NCBI GenBank assembly: GCA_004768415.1
Contig: SRMO01000084.1
Coordinates: forward strand, 1-32,556
Origin: Aphanocapsa feldmannii 277cV
Lineage (GTDB): Bacteria > Cyanobacteriota > Cyanobacteriia > PCC-6307 > Cyanobiaceae
DNA length: 32,556 nt
Reading direction: 5' to 3'
Both the position numbers and the translations under genes were made by a program. The notes under the pieces were generated by a model. It did not search any database and was not told where the DNA came from. It saw nothing but the letters and a program-made list of their open reading frames with translations. Below are positions 9,412 through 17,347 of the stretch, one piece after another (position 1 is the stretch's first letter; each line of letters starts with the position of its first letter).

Positions 9412-10899
9412 ATGCTGCGCGTTGCTGTGATCGGGGGCGGCCCAAGCGGTGCCTGTGCTGCCGAGATCCTGGCCAGGGCAGGCATCCGGACCTGGATTTT
9501 CGAGCGCAAGCTCGACAATGCCAAACCCTGTGGCGGTGCCATCCCCCTGTGCATGGTGGAAGAATTCGACTTGCCGGATGCGATCATCGACCGCAAGGTC
9601 CGCAATATGAAGATGATATCCCCCTCCAACGTGGAGGTGGATATCCGCCTTGATCCCCTCGGTTACAGCAAAGATGAATACATCGGTATGTGCCGCCGAG
9701 AGGTGTTTGATGCCTTCCTGCGCAACCGCGCTGCAGAACTCGGCGCCACGCTGATCAACGGTCTGGTGCAGCACATCGAGACAGGCAGTGACCGCCAGGG
9801 ACCTTATACCATCCGCTATGCCGATTACACCGGAGGGGGCCCCACCGGTGAGATCAAAACTCTGAACGTGGATTTGATCATTGGTGCCGATGGCGCCAAC
9901 TCCCGCGTTGCCAAAGCAATGGATGCGGGGACTTACAACGTGGCCATCGCCTTCCAGGAACGCATCAAGCTGCCGGCGCAGGAGATGAAGTACTACGAGG
10001 ACCTGGCTGAGATGTACGTCGGCACCGATGTCTCACCTGATTTCTACGCCTGGGTGTTTCCCAAATACGACCATGTGGCCGTGGGCACCGGCACCATGCA
10101 GCAGAACCAGAGCCTGATCAAGTCGCTGCAGCGCGGCATCCGCACGCGGGCCAGCAAGCGTCTGTTCAAAGGTGACGTGATCAAGGTGGAAGCCCACCCC
10201 ATTCCCGAGCATCCACGGCCTCGTCGTGTTGTCGGCCGCATGGTGCTGGTGGGTGATGCCGCCGGTTATGTCACCAAGAGTTCCGGCGAAGGCATCTATT
10301 TTGCGGCCAAGAGTGGGCGCATGTGTGCCGAAGCCATTGTTGAAGTTTCCGGTCAGGGTAGGCGTATCCCAACTCAACAGGAGCTCAGGAGAACCTATCT
10401 ACGTCGCTGGGACCGCAAGTATGGCACCACCTACAAGGTGCTGGAGCTTCTTCAGAACATCTTCTATTCGAGTGATGCTGCCCGGGAAGCCTTCGTCGAG
10501 ATGTGCGATGACAAGGATGTGCAGAAGCTGACCTTCGACAGCTACCTCTACAAGCGGGTGGTGATGATGAATCCCTGGCAGCAGATCAAGCTGACGTTCC
10601 GGACGGTCGCCAGCCTGCTGCGTGGTCAGGCTCTGGCGCCAGCCCGCTACACCCCTGTTCCCTCCGCAGTCGGCCGCTCGGAGCAGGACTTTGCCGCCGA
10701 GGCGGAGGAAGCCGCCCCTGTGGCGGCAGCGGTTCCCCATCCCGCCAGGACGGGCACAAGCGGGAGGGCACAATCAGAAGACGGCAGCGGGGGCGCCATC
10801 AGCGAGACCAACGGGAATACCAGGATGCCCAATGCTGCTGGCAAGGCCAGCGGGCGGAAGGATGTCAAGGACGCGAAGGAGCCGGTGAGCGCCAGCTGA
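9412..10899 (+). CDS. chlP: geranylgeranyl diphosphate/chlorophyllide reductase
   Basis: MLRVAVIGGGPSGACAAEILARAGIRTWIFERKLDNAKPCGGAIPLCMVEEFDLP; full-length ChlP with C-terminal ...LAPARYTPVPSAVGRSEQDF then a low-complexity tail. Confidence 0.95.
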   Translation: MLRVAVIGGGPSGACAAEILARAGIRTWIFERKLDNAKPCGGAIPLCMVEEFDLPDAIIDRKVRNMKMISPSNVEVDIRLDPLGYSKDEYIGMCRREVFDAFLRNRAAELGATLINGLVQHIETGSDRQGPYTIRYADYTGGGPTGEIKTLNVDLIIGADGANSRVAKAMDAGTYNVAIAFQERIKLPAQEMKYYEDLAEMYVGTDVSPDFYAWVFPKYDHVAVGTGTMQQNQSLIKSLQRGIRTRASKRLFKGDVIKVEAHPIPEHPRPRRVVGRMVLVGDAAGYVTKSSGEGIYFAAKSGRMCAEAIVEVSGQGRRIPTQQELRRTYLRRWDRKYGTTYKVLELLQNIFYSSDAAREAFVEMCDDKDVQKLTFDSYLYKRVVMMNPWQQIKLTFRTVASLLRGQALAPARYTPVPSAVGRSEQDFAAEAEEAAPVAAAVPHPARTGTSGRAQSEDGSGGAISETNGNTRMPNAAGKASGRKDVKDAKEPVSAS

Positions 10900-10918
10900 G
10901 GGCCCCAGCTGGCTTCCA

Positions 10919-11231
10919 TCACCATGGGATAAGGCCGCCAGCTGGGGGGGCCACAGCCTGCAGACCCCTGACCAGGCTCTCGTAGCTGCCCAGATCGCGG
11001 CCAGCGGTGCCAGCTGTTGCAGTGCCATGTGGCCATGGGCACCGGCACCATGGAGCAGAACCGGAGTCTGATCAAGTCGCTGCAGCGCGGCATCCGCACG
11101 CGGGCCGGCAAGCGTCTGCTCAAAGGTGACGTGATCAAGATGGAAGCCCACCCCGTTCCTGAGCATCCACGGCCCCGTCGTGTTGTCGGGCGCATGGTGC
11201 TGGTGGCTGATGCCGCCGGCTATGTCACCAG
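10919..11231. pseudogene. mosaic remnant: glyS 3'-region fragment (10919-11025) fused to internal chlP fragment (about 11026-11231)
   Basis: 10919-11025 aligns to 15300-15412 inside glyS (same + strand orientation, one extra g, about 7-nt deletion). 11026-11231 aligns to chlP 10071-10276 with 13 hand-counted mismatches in about 206 nt. Confidence 0.93.
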
Positions 11232-11232
11232 G

Positions 11233-11259
11233 GCACCTCGAAAAATCGCTTCTTCCTTA
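11233..11259 (+). repeat. 27-bp repeat copy 1 (gcacctcgaaaaatcgcttcttcctta)
   Basis: Matches 11766-11792 with 3 mismatches; the pair flanks the small secreted protein gene. Confidence 0.8.
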
Positions 11260-11267
11260 GAAGAAGC
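11248..11267 (-). terminator. Rho-independent-type terminator of the small secreted protein gene
   Basis: Minus strand reads GCTTCTTC-TAAG-GAAGAAGC followed by GATTTTT: perfect 8-bp stem, 4-nt loop, T tract; the TAA stop of the gene lies in the loop. Confidence 0.7.
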
Positions 11268-11670
11268 CGTCACTCCAAATATCTAGATCTATGGAATAAT
11301 CAGAATAAGGAGGTTTGGTATCGGAATGGGAGAGATCTTTACAGTAGTAGACGCCACGCACGTGACCGTTACCGCTACCTTTCCTCTTCCTGGAGCCGTT
11401 GAGGTGCCATGTCTTATCTTTGGCATTCTTGACATCGACCTTGACGACAATCTTTCCCTTGTCACTACAGAGGTTGCGTGCCCAAGCGTACCATTTTGGA
11501 TTCCAGAATGAATTGCCCTTATTCTTGTAACCACCTTCCATGCACGGGACCCTATCGGGGTGGAGTCGTTTACCTTTTTCGCATGACGCAAGCACAGGTC
11601 CACCCGTAACTGCCAGCGGCGTCAGCACCGCTGTAAGCCTACTGGCTAACTTCATTGTTCTGATTTGCAT
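11257..11670 (-). CDS. small secreted basic Cys-containing hypothetical protein
   Basis: Signal-peptide-like MKLASRLTAVLTPLAVTGGPVLA|SCEKGK..., mature region with four Cys (SCEK, VPCMEG, RNLCSD, YYCKD); followed directly by a terminator-like hairpin; AT-rich upstream. Start may be 11670 or 11655. Confidence 0.62.
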   Translation of the reverse strand: MQIRTMKLASRLTAVLTPLAVTGGPVLASCEKGKRLHPDRVPCMEGGYKNKGNSFWNPKWYAWARNLCSDKGKIVVKVDVKNAKDKTWHLNGSRKRKGSGNGHVRGVYYCKDLSHSDTKPPYSDYSIDLDIWSDGFF

Positions 11671-11765
11671 TAGGCTGATCTTTAATAGAAGACTCTAATA
11701 AAGAAAGGTAAATAGCAGATTACTAGATCAAACTTTTATACATCTTAATAGTGTGTTCTGACTAG

Positions 11766-11792
11766 GCACCTCGAAAAATTGCCTCTTCTTTA
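11766..11792 (+). repeat. 27-bp repeat copy 2 (gcacctcgaaaaattgcctcttcttta)
   Basis: Near-identical to 11233-11259; its core gcacctcgaaaa recurs at 12728-12739. Confidence 0.8.
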
Positions 11793-11893
11793 TCTGGAAA
11801 GCCCGGCCGACTCACTCAACCCCTTGCCACTACTTGTGCCTTCATAGCAACAGGCCATCCCGCCGGGCAAAGTTGCTGGATTTTTCCAGGTGC
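11766..11893. mobile_element. possible small MITE/IS-end-like element with imperfect terminal inverted repeats
   Basis: Left end GCACCTCGAAAAAT; right end reverse complement GCACCTGGAAAAAT (1 mismatch in 14); interval about 128 bp without a convincing ORF. Confidence 0.35.
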
Positions 11894-13151
11894 TCTACAG
11901 CCGTCCGACCACCGTCTGTTCATGACCGACGCTGGGCTGCACGGCCGGAGACCTGCGCAGCTCGATCAGATCACCACTCTGCACGGCGACGCTGGCCAGC
12001 CGCCGACCGAAAGCGCAACAGCACCGGAAGTAGTCGACACATCGTCCAGACCACTCCGGACCACCAGGCCGGGACAGCCAGCAGAAGGCGGCAACCCCAC
12101 CAGGGAAGAGAACGACACCAGAAAGGGAACGACAGCACCGCTGATAACCAGCAGCCACCTGGCTGTGACCAGGGTCAGACCAGGGGATCATCCACATCTA
12201 TATCCAGCAGCCGCGGCGACGGCGGCGACCCCGGCTCTGCCTGCATCCGCGATGCTTGCGTCAGCGAAGGGGAGGCAGCATCAGCAGCAGGCCCGACAGC
12301 GGGCAGGGATGCTGCTGCTGCTGTTGGCGTCGGTGAGGCTGTTGATGCTGGTGTTGGTATCGGAGCCGGATCAGTGGAGACGGAGACAAGGCGCCAGCCC
12401 TGCTCCTGCCATCCAGGCAGATGCACGGGCCAGGTCCATCGCTGCTGTCTTCCCTTGCAGATGTTCACCATCCGCTGCGGTGCCTGGGGCAGGCGAGGCT
12501 CCCTGGCTGGCTCCGCCTGGGGCGTACCGCCTGAAGTAGCGCTGGCCGGGACGGCTGAGGCCGACGTTCATTCCCTCCGGTGTGGAGGATGTCACCAGGG
12601 CCTTGGTAAGGCAGACCGCCAGCAGATCCGCTGCCAATCCACAGCAATCGCCACGGTTGCGGCTACTGCTGGATGAGGTTCTGAAAGCACTGCAGACGTG
12701 TGAGAACGAACTCGGAACCTACCCAGAGCACCTCGAAAACCAGCCAATCTGCCTCTATAAGATGGTTGGTTACCATGAAGGCATCAGCAGTGACAGAGAA
12801 TCAAGTGAGACAGCAGTGTTTGACCTGAGAGTTTGCTGAAAAACCCGGATCCGTTGTGCCAGAAGAGATCTGACTTGTCGATCCCCTTGTCGATGGGCAA
12901 GGGAAGCTCTGAATTGGCCGGAATCAGACAGCAGCAGACTTGGACGTCTCTCTCTTCACAGGATTTTCAGAAGCTCGGCAGAGACAAGAGGGACTTGCTC
13001 AGAGGTTCCCTCACCTCGCCATTATGAATCTCAGGGCCAGCGGCAAGTCCTTCAATAAACATGAATAAATGTTAAGACACTGATTCCAGCTATTGCCAAG
13101 AATGCCACGCAGGCTGCACACTGTTAGCCAGTTGCTCTTGATTGAGAAGCA

Positions 13152-14414
13152 ATGCCGTTGAACAAGATCAGCCGCATTTTGATGCCCGCATTGCTGAGCT
13201 TGTCAACCGCTTCCTTTTCCTTCGCTGTCCAAGCGGCTGAGCGAGGCAGGATCAGATCCCTACAGGGCAAGGCCGATCTGCTGCAACACGACCTCGCCCC
13301 TGGCATCAACACGCCGACGTTCGTCAACGGAGGAGCAAGGGACAGCGCAGCACTGGATAATAACATGAATAACCTGGAAGGGCTGCATATCAGTCAAAAC
13401 CGGCTGTCGGCTCCGAAATCCGAAAGAGATGTGTTGATTGAATTCTACGACGCGACCAATGGTGATAATTGGGAAAATAACACTAACTGGAAGAGTAATA
13501 AACCCCTCAGCGAATGGTATGGCATCACCACCGATAGTTCAGGGCGGGTGACCGAGCTGAAGCTTCGCAACAACCAACTGACGGGAAGTATCCCCGCGGC
13601 CTTGGGTAACTTAAACAATCTCACAGAGCTGGATCTTGCCTCCAACAAACTCAGAGGATCGATCCCCACGGCCTTGGGCAACTTGAGCAATCTCAAAAAA
13701 CTGGATCTCAGCAATAGCAAATCAGCCAAAGAGATTGCTCGCATAGATAAAGATATTGCTCGCACAAGTAAAAATATTCAGCTTCATAACGAGATTCAAA
13801 GAGGTATTGGCGAGCTTGGTAGCCTGCTTGGAATAGAAGATGAAGATAACACATCCAAGCAGTCATTGAAAGAAGGTAAAGATTACGAAAAAATGGCTAA
13901 ATATTACGAACAACTTGCTACAAATATAAATATACTGACGGGACCAATTCCCACAGTGTTGGGCAACTTGAATAATCTCACGGAATTGAATCTTGGCGGC
14001 AACGAACTGACGGGACCGATCCCGCCAGCTTTGGGCAACTTGACTAACCTCAGAGAACTGAATCTTTACGACAACCAACTATCGGGAAGGATCCCGGCCG
14101 CTTTGGGCAACTTGACTAATCTCAGATTGCTGGATCTTTCCGACAACCAACTATCGGGAAGGATCCCGCCAGCTTTGGGCAACTTGACTAAGCTCGCAAG
14201 ACTGTATCTTAACGACAACCAACTGACGGGAAGGATTCCGGCCGCTTTGGGCAACTTGAACAACCTCAAATCCCTGAATCTTTCCTACAACCAACTAACG
14301 GGAAGGATTCCGGCCGCTTTGGGCAACTTGACTAAGCTCAAAACACTGGATCTTGACGGCAACCAACTGACAGGATCAATCCCTGCGGCGCTAAAGGAGG
14401 CGCTAGAGCAATAG
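13152..14414 (+). CDS. secreted plant-type leucine-rich-repeat protein
   Basis: Signal peptide-like N-terminus, cap region ERDVLIEFYDATNGDNWENNTNWKSNKPLSEWYGIT, then 24-aa repeats LxxLxLxxNxLxGxIPxALGNLxN. Confidence 0.92.
   Translation: MPLNKISRILMPALLSLSTASFSFAVQAAERGRIRSLQGKADLLQHDLAPGINTPTFVNGGARDSAALDNNMNNLEGLHISQNRLSAPKSERDVLIEFYDATNGDNWENNTNWKSNKPLSEWYGITTDSSGRVTELKLRNNQLTGSIPAALGNLNNLTELDLASNKLRGSIPTALGNLSNLKKLDLSNSKSAKEIARIDKDIARTSKNIQLHNEIQRGIGELGSLLGIEDEDNTSKQSLKEGKDYEKMAKYYEQLATNINILTGPIPTVLGNLNNLTELNLGGNELTGPIPPALGNLTNLRELNLYDNQLSGRIPAALGNLTNLRLLDLSDNQLSGRIPPALGNLTKLARLYLNDNQLTGRIPAALGNLNNLKSLNLSYNQLTGRIPAALGNLTKLKTLDLDGNQLTGSIPAALKEALEQ
13551..14395 (+). repeat. 72-bp (24-aa) LRR-coding tandem repeats, interrupted by a non-LRR insert at about 13722-13934
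   Basis: Repeated nucleotide blocks such as ggaaggatcccggccgctttgggcaacttgactaa; about nine protein repeats counted, the third split by the insert. Confidence 0.85.
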
Positions 14415-14858
14415 CGGCTGCATATGGAAGCCAATCAATTTACCAACTGACAGATTGTTCCCCTGACGATATTAAGAAAGCTCTGAAAAACTGACACAAC
14501 ACGCAGGTCGGCCACCAGCGCACATTGCACCGCAAGAGATTTCAGCAAGAGCATGATGAGAATGAGGAATTACCCAGAGTTTTCCCAGGTCGTCGATGCC
14601 CGGTGAACAGGACAGCCTTCCTGTGGGCGATCAGTCAACATGATTGAAGACATATCACCACTCCGGCACAGCCAAGCAAGGTCCAAACTTTCCTGCGAAA
14701 CCGAAGCTTGAAGCCGGTAGATCCATCTCGCCGCCAGCAAGGTCCGAGCATATTGTTCTGGTATTCCGGAATCTCTCTGAGCAGCCTCTGGACAACTTCC
14801 CATCGTCAATCTGAAAGCCAGGTTGCGGCAAGGGGTTTGGCTCACAGATCGGTCAACA

Positions 14859-15122
14859 TCACGAATGGTTCAGCGTATCCTTGTCGCTCAACGGTGGTCG
14901 TGAGAACGAGCCCAGCATGCCCTGCTTCTCCAGCCGAGCCTTGACGGTGAAGGAATGCATGGCCTTGTCGTGATCGGCATGGAGGATCAACTGACGGGTC
15001 TTTTCCCTGATGCTGTCAGGCAAACTCTGGACAATCTTGCATCTCGAATTCCATTGCCAGTGGCAGCAAGGCTTTTCGGCACCGAGACACTCCTTTTCGC
15101 CGCTTATCCAGACCTTCCTCAA
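14859..15122 (-). pseudogene. IS3-family-like transposase (integrase core) remnant
   Basis: Minus-strand translation ...SLPDSIREKTRQLILHADHDKAMHSFTVKARLEKQGMLGSFSRPPLSDKDTLNHS resembles the IS3 OrfB core LHSDNGxxMxxxTxxAxLxxLGVxxSFSRPxVSDDNPYSE; the rest of the transposase is not recognisable. Confidence 0.75.
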
Positions 15123-15181
15123 GCACAGCCAACATGATCAGACATGCTGCAGCGCAGTGGATCTACTCGTACTCGTTGCGG

Positions 15182-17347
15182 TCAGCCCGTGAGCACCGAG
15201 AAATCAGCCAGGGCGGCGGCCTGGTTGCGCAACAGACCCAGCAGGTTGAGACGGTTGCGGCGTATCGCCGGATCGTCGGCCATGACCAGGACGCTGTCCT
15301 CACCGTCGAAGAAGGCGGCCAGCTGGGGGGCCACAGCCTGCAGACCCCTGACCAGGCTCTCGTAGCTGTCCCGATTGCGGCCAGTGGCCAGCGGTGCCAG
15401 CTGTTGCAGTGCAGCGAGGAAGGCCCGCTCACTGGCTTTCGAGCTGAACAGGGACGGATCCACCACAGCTTCGGGATCCACCACATCCCTTGCCAGATCT
15501 CCTTTCACCGCCAGGCGCGCCGCCCGCTGCACCACGGTCTGAATGGGAGCGAGGCCACCGCTGGCCCGCAGACCCTGCAGCAGATCAGCGCGTTGCAGCA
15601 CATCGAGCGGACGACGCAGCGGTGGCTTGATGGCGAACACAGCGGCGGCGATGTCATGGTCCACGCCACGTTCCTCCAACAGGGCAAGGAGGCGCTGGCC
15701 GAGGAAGTGCTCGAGATCCTGTGTCAGCTGTTCCCGTTTCGGTGACAGGGTGGTCAGCGTGTCCAGCGTTGCGGCGATCTGCTCCTGCAGCACGGCCGTG
15801 AGGTCCGGTTCCCAGCCGGCAGCGGCAAGGATGCGCAGCAGCCCGTTGCCGGCGCGGCGCAGGGCGAAGGGATCGGAAGAACCGCTGGGACGCTGGCCCG
15901 TGCAGAAGATGCCGACCAGCAGATCGAGCCGGTCGGCCAGGGCCAGCAGCTGCCCTGCAGGGGATGCGGGCAGGTCGTCAGCGGCACCCCTGGGCAGGTA
16001 GTGCTCCCGTATGGCCACCGCCACCGCTCGGCTCTCGCCACTGCAGAGGGCATATTTTCCCCCCATCAGCCCCTGCAGTTCGGGAAATTCACAGACCATC
16101 CGCGACACCAGGTCGGCCTTGCAGAGTTCGGCGGCACGATGGGCCGGGCCGGCGACCTCAACCGGCAGCTCGAGGCGCATGGCGAGGGCGTCAACGCTGG
16201 CGATGAGGCGCTGGCGTCGGTCTTCCAGGGAGCCGAGCCCTTCGGCGAAGGTCATCGCTGCAAGGCCGGGCAGCAGGGTCTCGAGGCTGGCCTTGCGATC
16301 CTGCTCATAGAAGAAGGCACCATCGGCCAGCCGTGCCCGCAGCACCCGCTCGTTGCCGCGGCGGATGCTGTCGCCGGCATCGGGGTCGGCGCCATTGGTG
16401 ATGACCAGGAAGCGGGGCAGGAGAGTGCCCCGGGCGTCCAATGCAAGGGGATCCGCTGTGCCCGTGAACAGCGGCACATAGCGCTGGTGGCTGGTCATGA
16501 CCATGGCGGACACTTCCGCCGGAAGGTCGAGGTAGCGCTCTGCGATGCTGCCGACCAGAATGCCGGGTGCTTCCACCAGATCGACCAATTCCTCCAGCAG
16601 CGGCGCCTCGAGTTGCGCTGTGGCCTGAAGCGCGGACGCTTCGGTCTCGATCAGCGCGGTGATGGCGGCGCGGCGAGCGGCCCGATCGGCCATGACGCCG
16701 GCGGTCGCCAGGCTGGAGAGATAGGCATCGGCATGGGGAATGGGCAGGGGGGAGGGGTCACTGCCCCGGCGCAGCCCCCGGGAGAGGGCAGCGCTGCTCA
16801 CCGCCGTGTCGCCGCTGCCGAGGCTCACGGGAAGAATCCGATCGTCCTGCAGCGCCACCAGCCAGCGGATCGGCCGGCTGAAGCGCAGCTCGCCTTCGCC
16901 CCAGCGCATGAAGCGCTTGCCCTGGATTGCCGCGATCCAGCGCGGAATGGCCTCGGCCAGCAATGAACCGCTGGAGCGTCCAGGTTCAATGCGGTGGGCA
17001 AACACGAAGGCACCCCTGGGGGTGTCACGCACCTGCAGGGACTCCGGCGCAACACCGCAACGCCTGGCGAAGCCGATGGCGGCGCGGCTGGGTCGGCCGT
17101 CGTGGAAAGCCTGCGCTGCAGGAGGTCCCTTGCGTTCTTCACGCCGTTCAGGCTGCCGCTCGGGCAGGTCCTCGATCAGCAGGGCCAGTCGGCGTGGGGT
17201 ACTGAAGCTCGAGATCGAGAGGGTTCCCAGCGGGAGGTGCCAGTGCTTCAGGGCCTCCGTTGCCAGTTGCTGCAGCTGCTCGCCGGCGGAAGCACAGAAC
17301 GTGGCAGGCAGCTCTTCGCTGCCGATTTCGAGCAGAAACGTGGCCAC
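15182..17347 (-). CDS. glyS: glycyl-tRNA synthetase beta subunit
   Basis: MATFLLEIGSEELPATFCASAGEQLQQLATEAL..., FMRWGEGELRFSRPIRWLVALQDD, GTLLPRFLVITNGADPD: GlyS. Confidence 0.96.
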   Translation of the reverse strand: MATFLLEIGSEELPATFCASAGEQLQQLATEALKHWHLPLGTLSISSFSTPRRLALLIEDLPERQPERREERKGPPAAQAFHDGRPSRAAIGFARRCGVAPESLQVRDTPRGAFVFAHRIEPGRSSGSLLAEAIPRWIAAIQGKRFMRWGEGELRFSRPIRWLVALQDDRILPVSLGSGDTAVSSAALSRGLRRGSDPSPLPIPHADAYLSSLATAGVMADRAARRAAITALIETEASALQATAQLEAPLLEELVDLVEAPGILVGSIAERYLDLPAEVSAMVMTSHQRYVPLFTGTADPLALDARGTLLPRFLVITNGADPDAGDSIRRGNERVLRARLADGAFFYEQDRKASLETLLPGLAAMTFAEGLGSLEDRRQRLIASVDALAMRLELPVEVAGPAHRAAELCKADLVSRMVCEFPELQGLMGGKYALCSGESRAVAVAIREHYLPRGAADDLPASPAGQLLALADRLDLLVGIFCTGQRPSGSSDPFALRRAGNGLLRILAAAGWEPDLTAVLQEQIAATLDTLTTLSPKREQLTQDLEHFLGQRLLALLEERGVDHDIAAAVFAIKPPLRRPLDVLQRADLLQGLRASGGLAPIQTVVQRAARLAVKGDLARDVVDPEAVVDPSLFSSKASERAFLAALQQLAPLATGRNRDSYESLVRGLQAVAPQLAAFFDGEDSVLVMADDPAIRRNRLNLLGLLRNQAAALADFSVLTG

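Follow-up and report, generated by a model that had tools for sequence, protein, structure and literature searches.

The small open reading frame studied here, within a 32,556-nucleotide stretch of cyanobacterial DNA (the window), is, as judged from sequence, one member of an undescribed multigene set of exported, disulfide-stabilised β-domain proteins. We favour, with a probability of roughly 55%, the interpretation that this family is a secreted extracellular binding module acting at the interface with a sponge and amplified after horizontal transfer. We infer binding at the sponge interface because relatives of the family are fused to Calx-beta domains and autotransporter barrels and are found mostly in sponge-derived bacteria. 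A secreted effector or adhesion role, offered as speculation in the preliminary description, stays putative but has gained support from the same fusions and largely sponge distribution. The ligand of the domain would probably be a sponge-derived glycan or surface protein.

The gene had been described as an orphan, which a search of its own genome (2,549,273 bases in 100 contigs, 94.4% complete) refuted. The window protein found 45 matches and an alignment of the core found 43, and further relatives were found in alphaproteobacteria, largely sponge-derived. Reading the stretches around family matches yielded 33 intact copies extending from the leader to the last core cysteine; the remainder were truncated, interrupted by stop codons or located at contig ends. 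In two of the 33, no ATG stands where one would be expected, so that a different start codon would be required. Because dN/dS ranged from 0.26 to 0.79 in the 30 closest pairs, with every value below 1, we consider the intact copies to be selected coding genes under purifying selection. There was no sign of positive selection, a point against our preferred reading. For the window copy paired with the relative closest to it by dS, dN/dS was 0.37, and this value together with the 33 intact paralogues argues that the window open reading frame is coding rather than a product of chance.

The signal-peptide-like leader noted earlier proved real, as a hydrophobic core and an A-x-A-like end occur in nearly all paralogues. 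Judged by inspection and hydropathy, leaders across the family resemble Sec signal peptides in their positive N-region, in the hydrophobic core that follows and in an end of the VLA↓S or AHA↓A type, and nearly all copies carry such an export-type leader. In the window protein, the VLA↓S end sits immediately before the first cysteine. Because the paralogues begin with MKL, translation of the window gene may start at the second methionine, giving a protein of 132 amino acids. The mature product is about 109 amino acids long, with four cysteines (at positions 2, 15, 40 and 82 of the mature protein, in a family domain of six predicted strands), a pI of 9.5 and a net charge of +9, which bears out the basic, four-cysteine protein initially described. 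The last residues of its C-terminal extension are predicted to be disordered in the AlphaFold2 model. Features of the window gene and its surroundings are collected in Table 1.

Table 1. Positions of the window gene, its parts and adjoining repeats and gene fragments within the window
Feature	Position	Strand	Remarks
Window open reading frame, 137 aa	11257..11670	minus	stop codon 11257-11259
Putative start at second Met	11653-11655	minus	paralogues start MKL
Signal-peptide-like leader ending VLA↓S	11587..11670	minus	hydrophobic core and A-x-A-like end
Family domain, ~86 residues	11326..11586	minus	alignment A1, AlphaFold2, genome matches
C-terminal extension, 17 codons beyond stop position of nearest paralogue C46	11260..11310	minus	3' end alignment
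Terminator-like hairpin, 8-bp stem, TAA stop in loop, then ATTTTTC	11248..11267	minus	
Left repeat, a lone truncated MITE-like end (28-bp remnant)	11232..11259	plus	
Complete 130-bp MITE-like element with 15-bp inverted ends, starting with right repeat	11765..11894	plus	
chlP fragment copy	11025..11230	plus	source 10071-10276, 94% identical
glyS fragment copy	10919..11025	plus	source 15300-15412, 86% identical

In the core alignment, C15, C40, G44, K49, C82 and D84 were invariant, and C2, R7, N22, N38, D57 and S86 were conserved in at least 90% of sequences. A third cysteine pair was complete in 20 rows and wholly absent in 12, with one exception. AlphaFold2, run with 33 sequences, predicted a six-strand β domain (mean pLDDT, 83.8). 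We detected no credible match to the family in Pfam, NCBIfam, PHROGs, PADLOC or the sequences of the PDB. Foldseek searches of the PDB and of viral models returned nothing at an E value of ≤0.001, and we judged the weak β-sandwich matches uninformative; that no known binding fold was matched in structure counts against a binding role. The earlier statement that no known family could be recognised therefore holds for the public libraries searched, but dozens of paralogues and outside relatives exist. An apparent orphan gene can thus belong to a large family that all profile libraries searched have missed. None of the viral contigs searched carry the family, and a phage or defence origin was unsupported. 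A literature search returned no description of the family; the passages of PMC6506613 examined do not describe it, and the words "hypothetical" and "secreted" are absent from the main text of that paper.

The paralogues fall into two branches. The window gene belongs to a basic, single-domain branch, and nine longer paralogues (164 to 188 amino acids when mature, 12 cysteines) are acidic and contain a second domain that the window protein lacks. In a pairwise hhalign comparison with cyanovirin-N, for which the sequence used was identical to the PDB chain, domain 2 aligned with the second repeat and scored 25.7 with a probability of 49%, a score unmatched in 300 shuffles (best, 18.8). Only one repeat-length unit aligned, and the model of domain 2 contains three long strands, a short helix and a hairpin. 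The Pfam CVNH profile matched none of 17 domain-2 sequences at an E value of ≤10, so we call the domain CVNH-like, apparently resembling half of cyanovirin-N, and not a CVNH member. This cyanovirin-like partner hints at glycans as the target, although its failure against the Pfam profile and its absence from the window protein weigh against the binding role.

A disulfide-stabilised domain present in many copies could instead be a structural protein of the envelope or matrix, coating the cell or its sheath and shielding it without specific recognition of the host. The small size, the cysteine framework, the copy number and the existence of surface-anchored relatives are compatible with such a coat, as are very weak Foldseek matches to Ena fibre subunits. 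Those matches, however, are not significant, and the divergence of the paralogues (25 to 78% identity) and the opposite charges of the two branches would be unusual for one coat polymer. We therefore regard a coat as unlikely.

Relatives outside the genome further support a binding role. A single protein used as a query against genome contigs gave no match. The two-domain alignment, searched against 84,980 species genomes, identified nine loci. They lie in eight genomes that all carry an alphaproteobacterial label, one being a Defluviicoccus and one a Rhodospirillaceae. These relatives are 36 to 44% identical, and in eight of the nine loci the match covers nearly the full length; each genome has one to five matches, and the open frames that contain them reach 865 codons. 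At least six of the eight genomes are sponge-derived, a count that covers bin52, bin95, the jk18x bins and Spongia_Bin9 and leaves out L090 (p16x60) and L092 (CO36404). The source of bin52 and bin95 is the sponge Aplysina aerophoba (PMC5649159), and that of the jk18x bins is Caribbean Ircinia sponges (PMC9531527). In several of the alphaproteobacterial proteins, the family unit is followed by Calx-beta. The autotransporter barrel TIGR01414 scored above its curated cut-off of 16 bits in L094 (25.7 bits) and L088 (23.1 bits); no such match was found in L089, L090 or L112. The window protein itself ends about 25 residues past the core domain and has no C-terminal outer-membrane β-barrel. We also observed a diverged alphaproteobacterial branch (L115, L116, L120 and L123) in cysteine-rich proteins of 380 to 580 residues; when inspected by eye, some of these seem to contain several domain-2-like units.

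The same relatives bear on whether the family is a secreted antibacterial protein directed against competing symbionts. Its window branch is small, basic, cysteine-rich and by prediction secreted, and the host has a dense microbial community, both of which favour this explanation. Against it, the paralogues with two domains are acidic, fusions to Calx-beta and autotransporter barrels occur among the relatives, no PHROGs or PADLOC family was matched, and we noticed no constant partner gene of the immunity type among neighbours, which were viewed unsystematically. An antibacterial function thus seems quite improbable.

The family was absent from all 399 other genomes sampled from the same cyanobacterial family and from all 385 sampled from other cyanobacteria across the phylum. 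Among sampled alphaproteobacteria, 5 of 385 were positive; 3 of 11 were positive in the family of genome G429, which alone was positive among 399 in its phylum. Because identities are only 36 to 44% and the GC content of the loci (65 to 69%) is in line with that of two Aplysina bins (66%), we rejected the idea that the alphaproteobacterial copies stem from contamination. When 51 domains were placed in a tree, 32 of 33 cyanobacterial copies clustered together (96/96), and this cluster was nested among alphaproteobacterial sequences. The remaining cyanobacterial copy fell outside, and a single cyanobacterial clade was not rejected (p-AU, 0.495). The simplest reading of these sequences would be acquisition followed by amplification in the cyanobacterium; since the root is not known, we only infer the direction of transfer.

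Passages of PMC6506613 describe "Ca. Synechococcus feldmannii" 277cV as a facultative, horizontally acquired symbiont in bacteriocytes of Petrosia ficiformis, and the source cyanobacterium probably lives within sponge cells. In our model, the signal peptide would take the cyanobacterial protein across the inner membrane, and two or three disulfides would stabilise the exported domain. Its site of action would then be the envelope or the immediate surroundings of the cell; provided that the genome belongs to the bacteriocyte symbiont, these surroundings would be the host vacuole. Alphaproteobacteria would display the two-domain unit, with its cyanovirin-like domain, as an outward-facing portion of an autotransporter. 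The two-domain form probably passed from such alphaproteobacteria to the cyanobacterium, the direction being that assumed above, and amplification there would have produced the basic single-domain branch, including the window gene, and the acidic two-domain branch. Because distant relatives form part of outer-membrane-anchored proteins in unrelated sponge bacteria, the family may be a shared tool for contact with the sponge.

An intracellular location raises the further explanation that the proteins are host-acting effectors that alter sponge cell physiology, for example vacuole maturation, beyond binding at the surface. The organism is probably intracellular according to parts of PMC6506613, and it has many diverging secreted copies. 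Yet searches of Pfam, NCBIfam and the PDB found no enzymatic motif or effector family, and Sec-type leaders reach the periplasm or medium, with no route to the host cytosol identified. We give such effectors a low probability.

How sponges discriminate symbionts from food is a long-standing question. To our knowledge, few testable bacterial molecules are available for this discrimination beyond ankyrin, LRR and FN3 proteins. Binding at the sponge interface, our preferred reading, could form part of a wider repertoire for contact with animals, carried by unrelated sponge bacteria, in which diversified secreted recognition domains, with a cyanovirin-like glycan-binding unit, help a horizontally acquired bacteriocyte cyanobacterium to recognise sponge cells, to enter them or to escape being digested by them and have spread between phyla inside such animals; we put this forward as tentative and on balance doubtful. 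The family supplies small soluble proteins that could be produced and assayed for sponge-cell binding. It is useful for such tests because it is large and predicted to be exported, is missing from the cyanobacterial relatives sampled and also occurs in unrelated, mostly sponge-derived bacteria.

Near-identical direct repeats had been noted on both sides of the window gene, and these are present (28 bp at 11232-11259 and 11765-11792, 89% identical). They are ends of a short, non-coding, dispersed MITE-like element with 15-bp terminal inverted repeats and a length of 128 to 131 bp across its many copies. With at most one mismatch allowed, the genome contains 105 instances of the 15-bp end, GGCACCTSGAAAAAT, versus none in a reversed control, and short direct repeats (CTA, CTAAA or TGATG) border some copies and not others. 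Alignment of 3' ends indicated that the stop of paralogue C46 is missing in the window copy, so that the frame continues into a MITE remnant, which contributes the stop position of the window gene, one hairpin arm and the T-run. The terminator-like hairpin, whose loop contains the stop codon (stem arms, GCTTCTTC/GAAGAAGC), is likewise present as described, though only weakly above chance (one found versus 0.6 ± 0.8 in shuffles; folding z, -1.99). The idea of a self-contained cargo unit is only weakly supported: repeats do flank the gene, but they are remnants of a MITE-like element that neighbours many though by no means every family member, and the surrounding stretch carries copied chlP and glyS fragments. 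Since the repeats are ends of a dispersed element, the "cassette" is best read as mostly mobile-element debris. A functionless amplification, in which the gene hitch-hikes with MITE-like elements and most copies are genomic debris, is very improbable: the density of MITE ends in the 600 bp around family genes exceeds the genome-wide density 7.5-fold, several copies are decayed and inverted ends at 11232 and 11880 could delimit a 663-bp unit, but 33 intact open reading frames are under purifying selection, many members have no MITE end nearby, alphaproteobacterial relatives exist, and MITE-like elements and accessory genes may both gather in tolerant DNA.

The window gene lies in a 4.3-kb insertion (10900-15182) between convergent chlP and glyS, which are close together and convergent in seven of nine other genomes examined from the same family. 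Both gene-fragment copies adjoin the family gene inside this island. The island also encodes, at 13152-14414, a secreted-looking leucine-rich-repeat protein of 420 amino acids with relatives in family regions L045 and L054. As these are the only two other family regions with such a relative, constant linkage was rejected. We also rejected this open reading frame as a type III effector, as its NCBIfam matches were far under the cut-offs and reflect LRR repeats only.

Compared with known systems, the family shares features with three. According to PMC6506613, sponge symbionts are enriched in eukaryotic-like proteins (ankyrin, LRR, FN3 and cadherin), which their free-living relatives rarely have. 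The window gene has an LRR gene at a distance of 1.5 kb, whereas the window family itself has no detectable eukaryotic repeat or domain. With CVNH lectins (PF08881), domain 2 of the long paralogues and alphaproteobacterial relatives shares a cysteine pair and an N-x-x-G-x-L end; it differs in falling below Pfam detection, in having a single repeat rather than two and in its additional cysteines, and the window protein lacks the cyanovirin-like domain altogether. Finally, while the window protein, like its paralogues, is short, free, barrel-less and, by prediction, secreted, the alphaproteobacterial family unit resembles Calx-beta autotransporters in lying N-terminal to Calx-beta and, in two proteins, in being joined to a TIGR01414 barrel as well.
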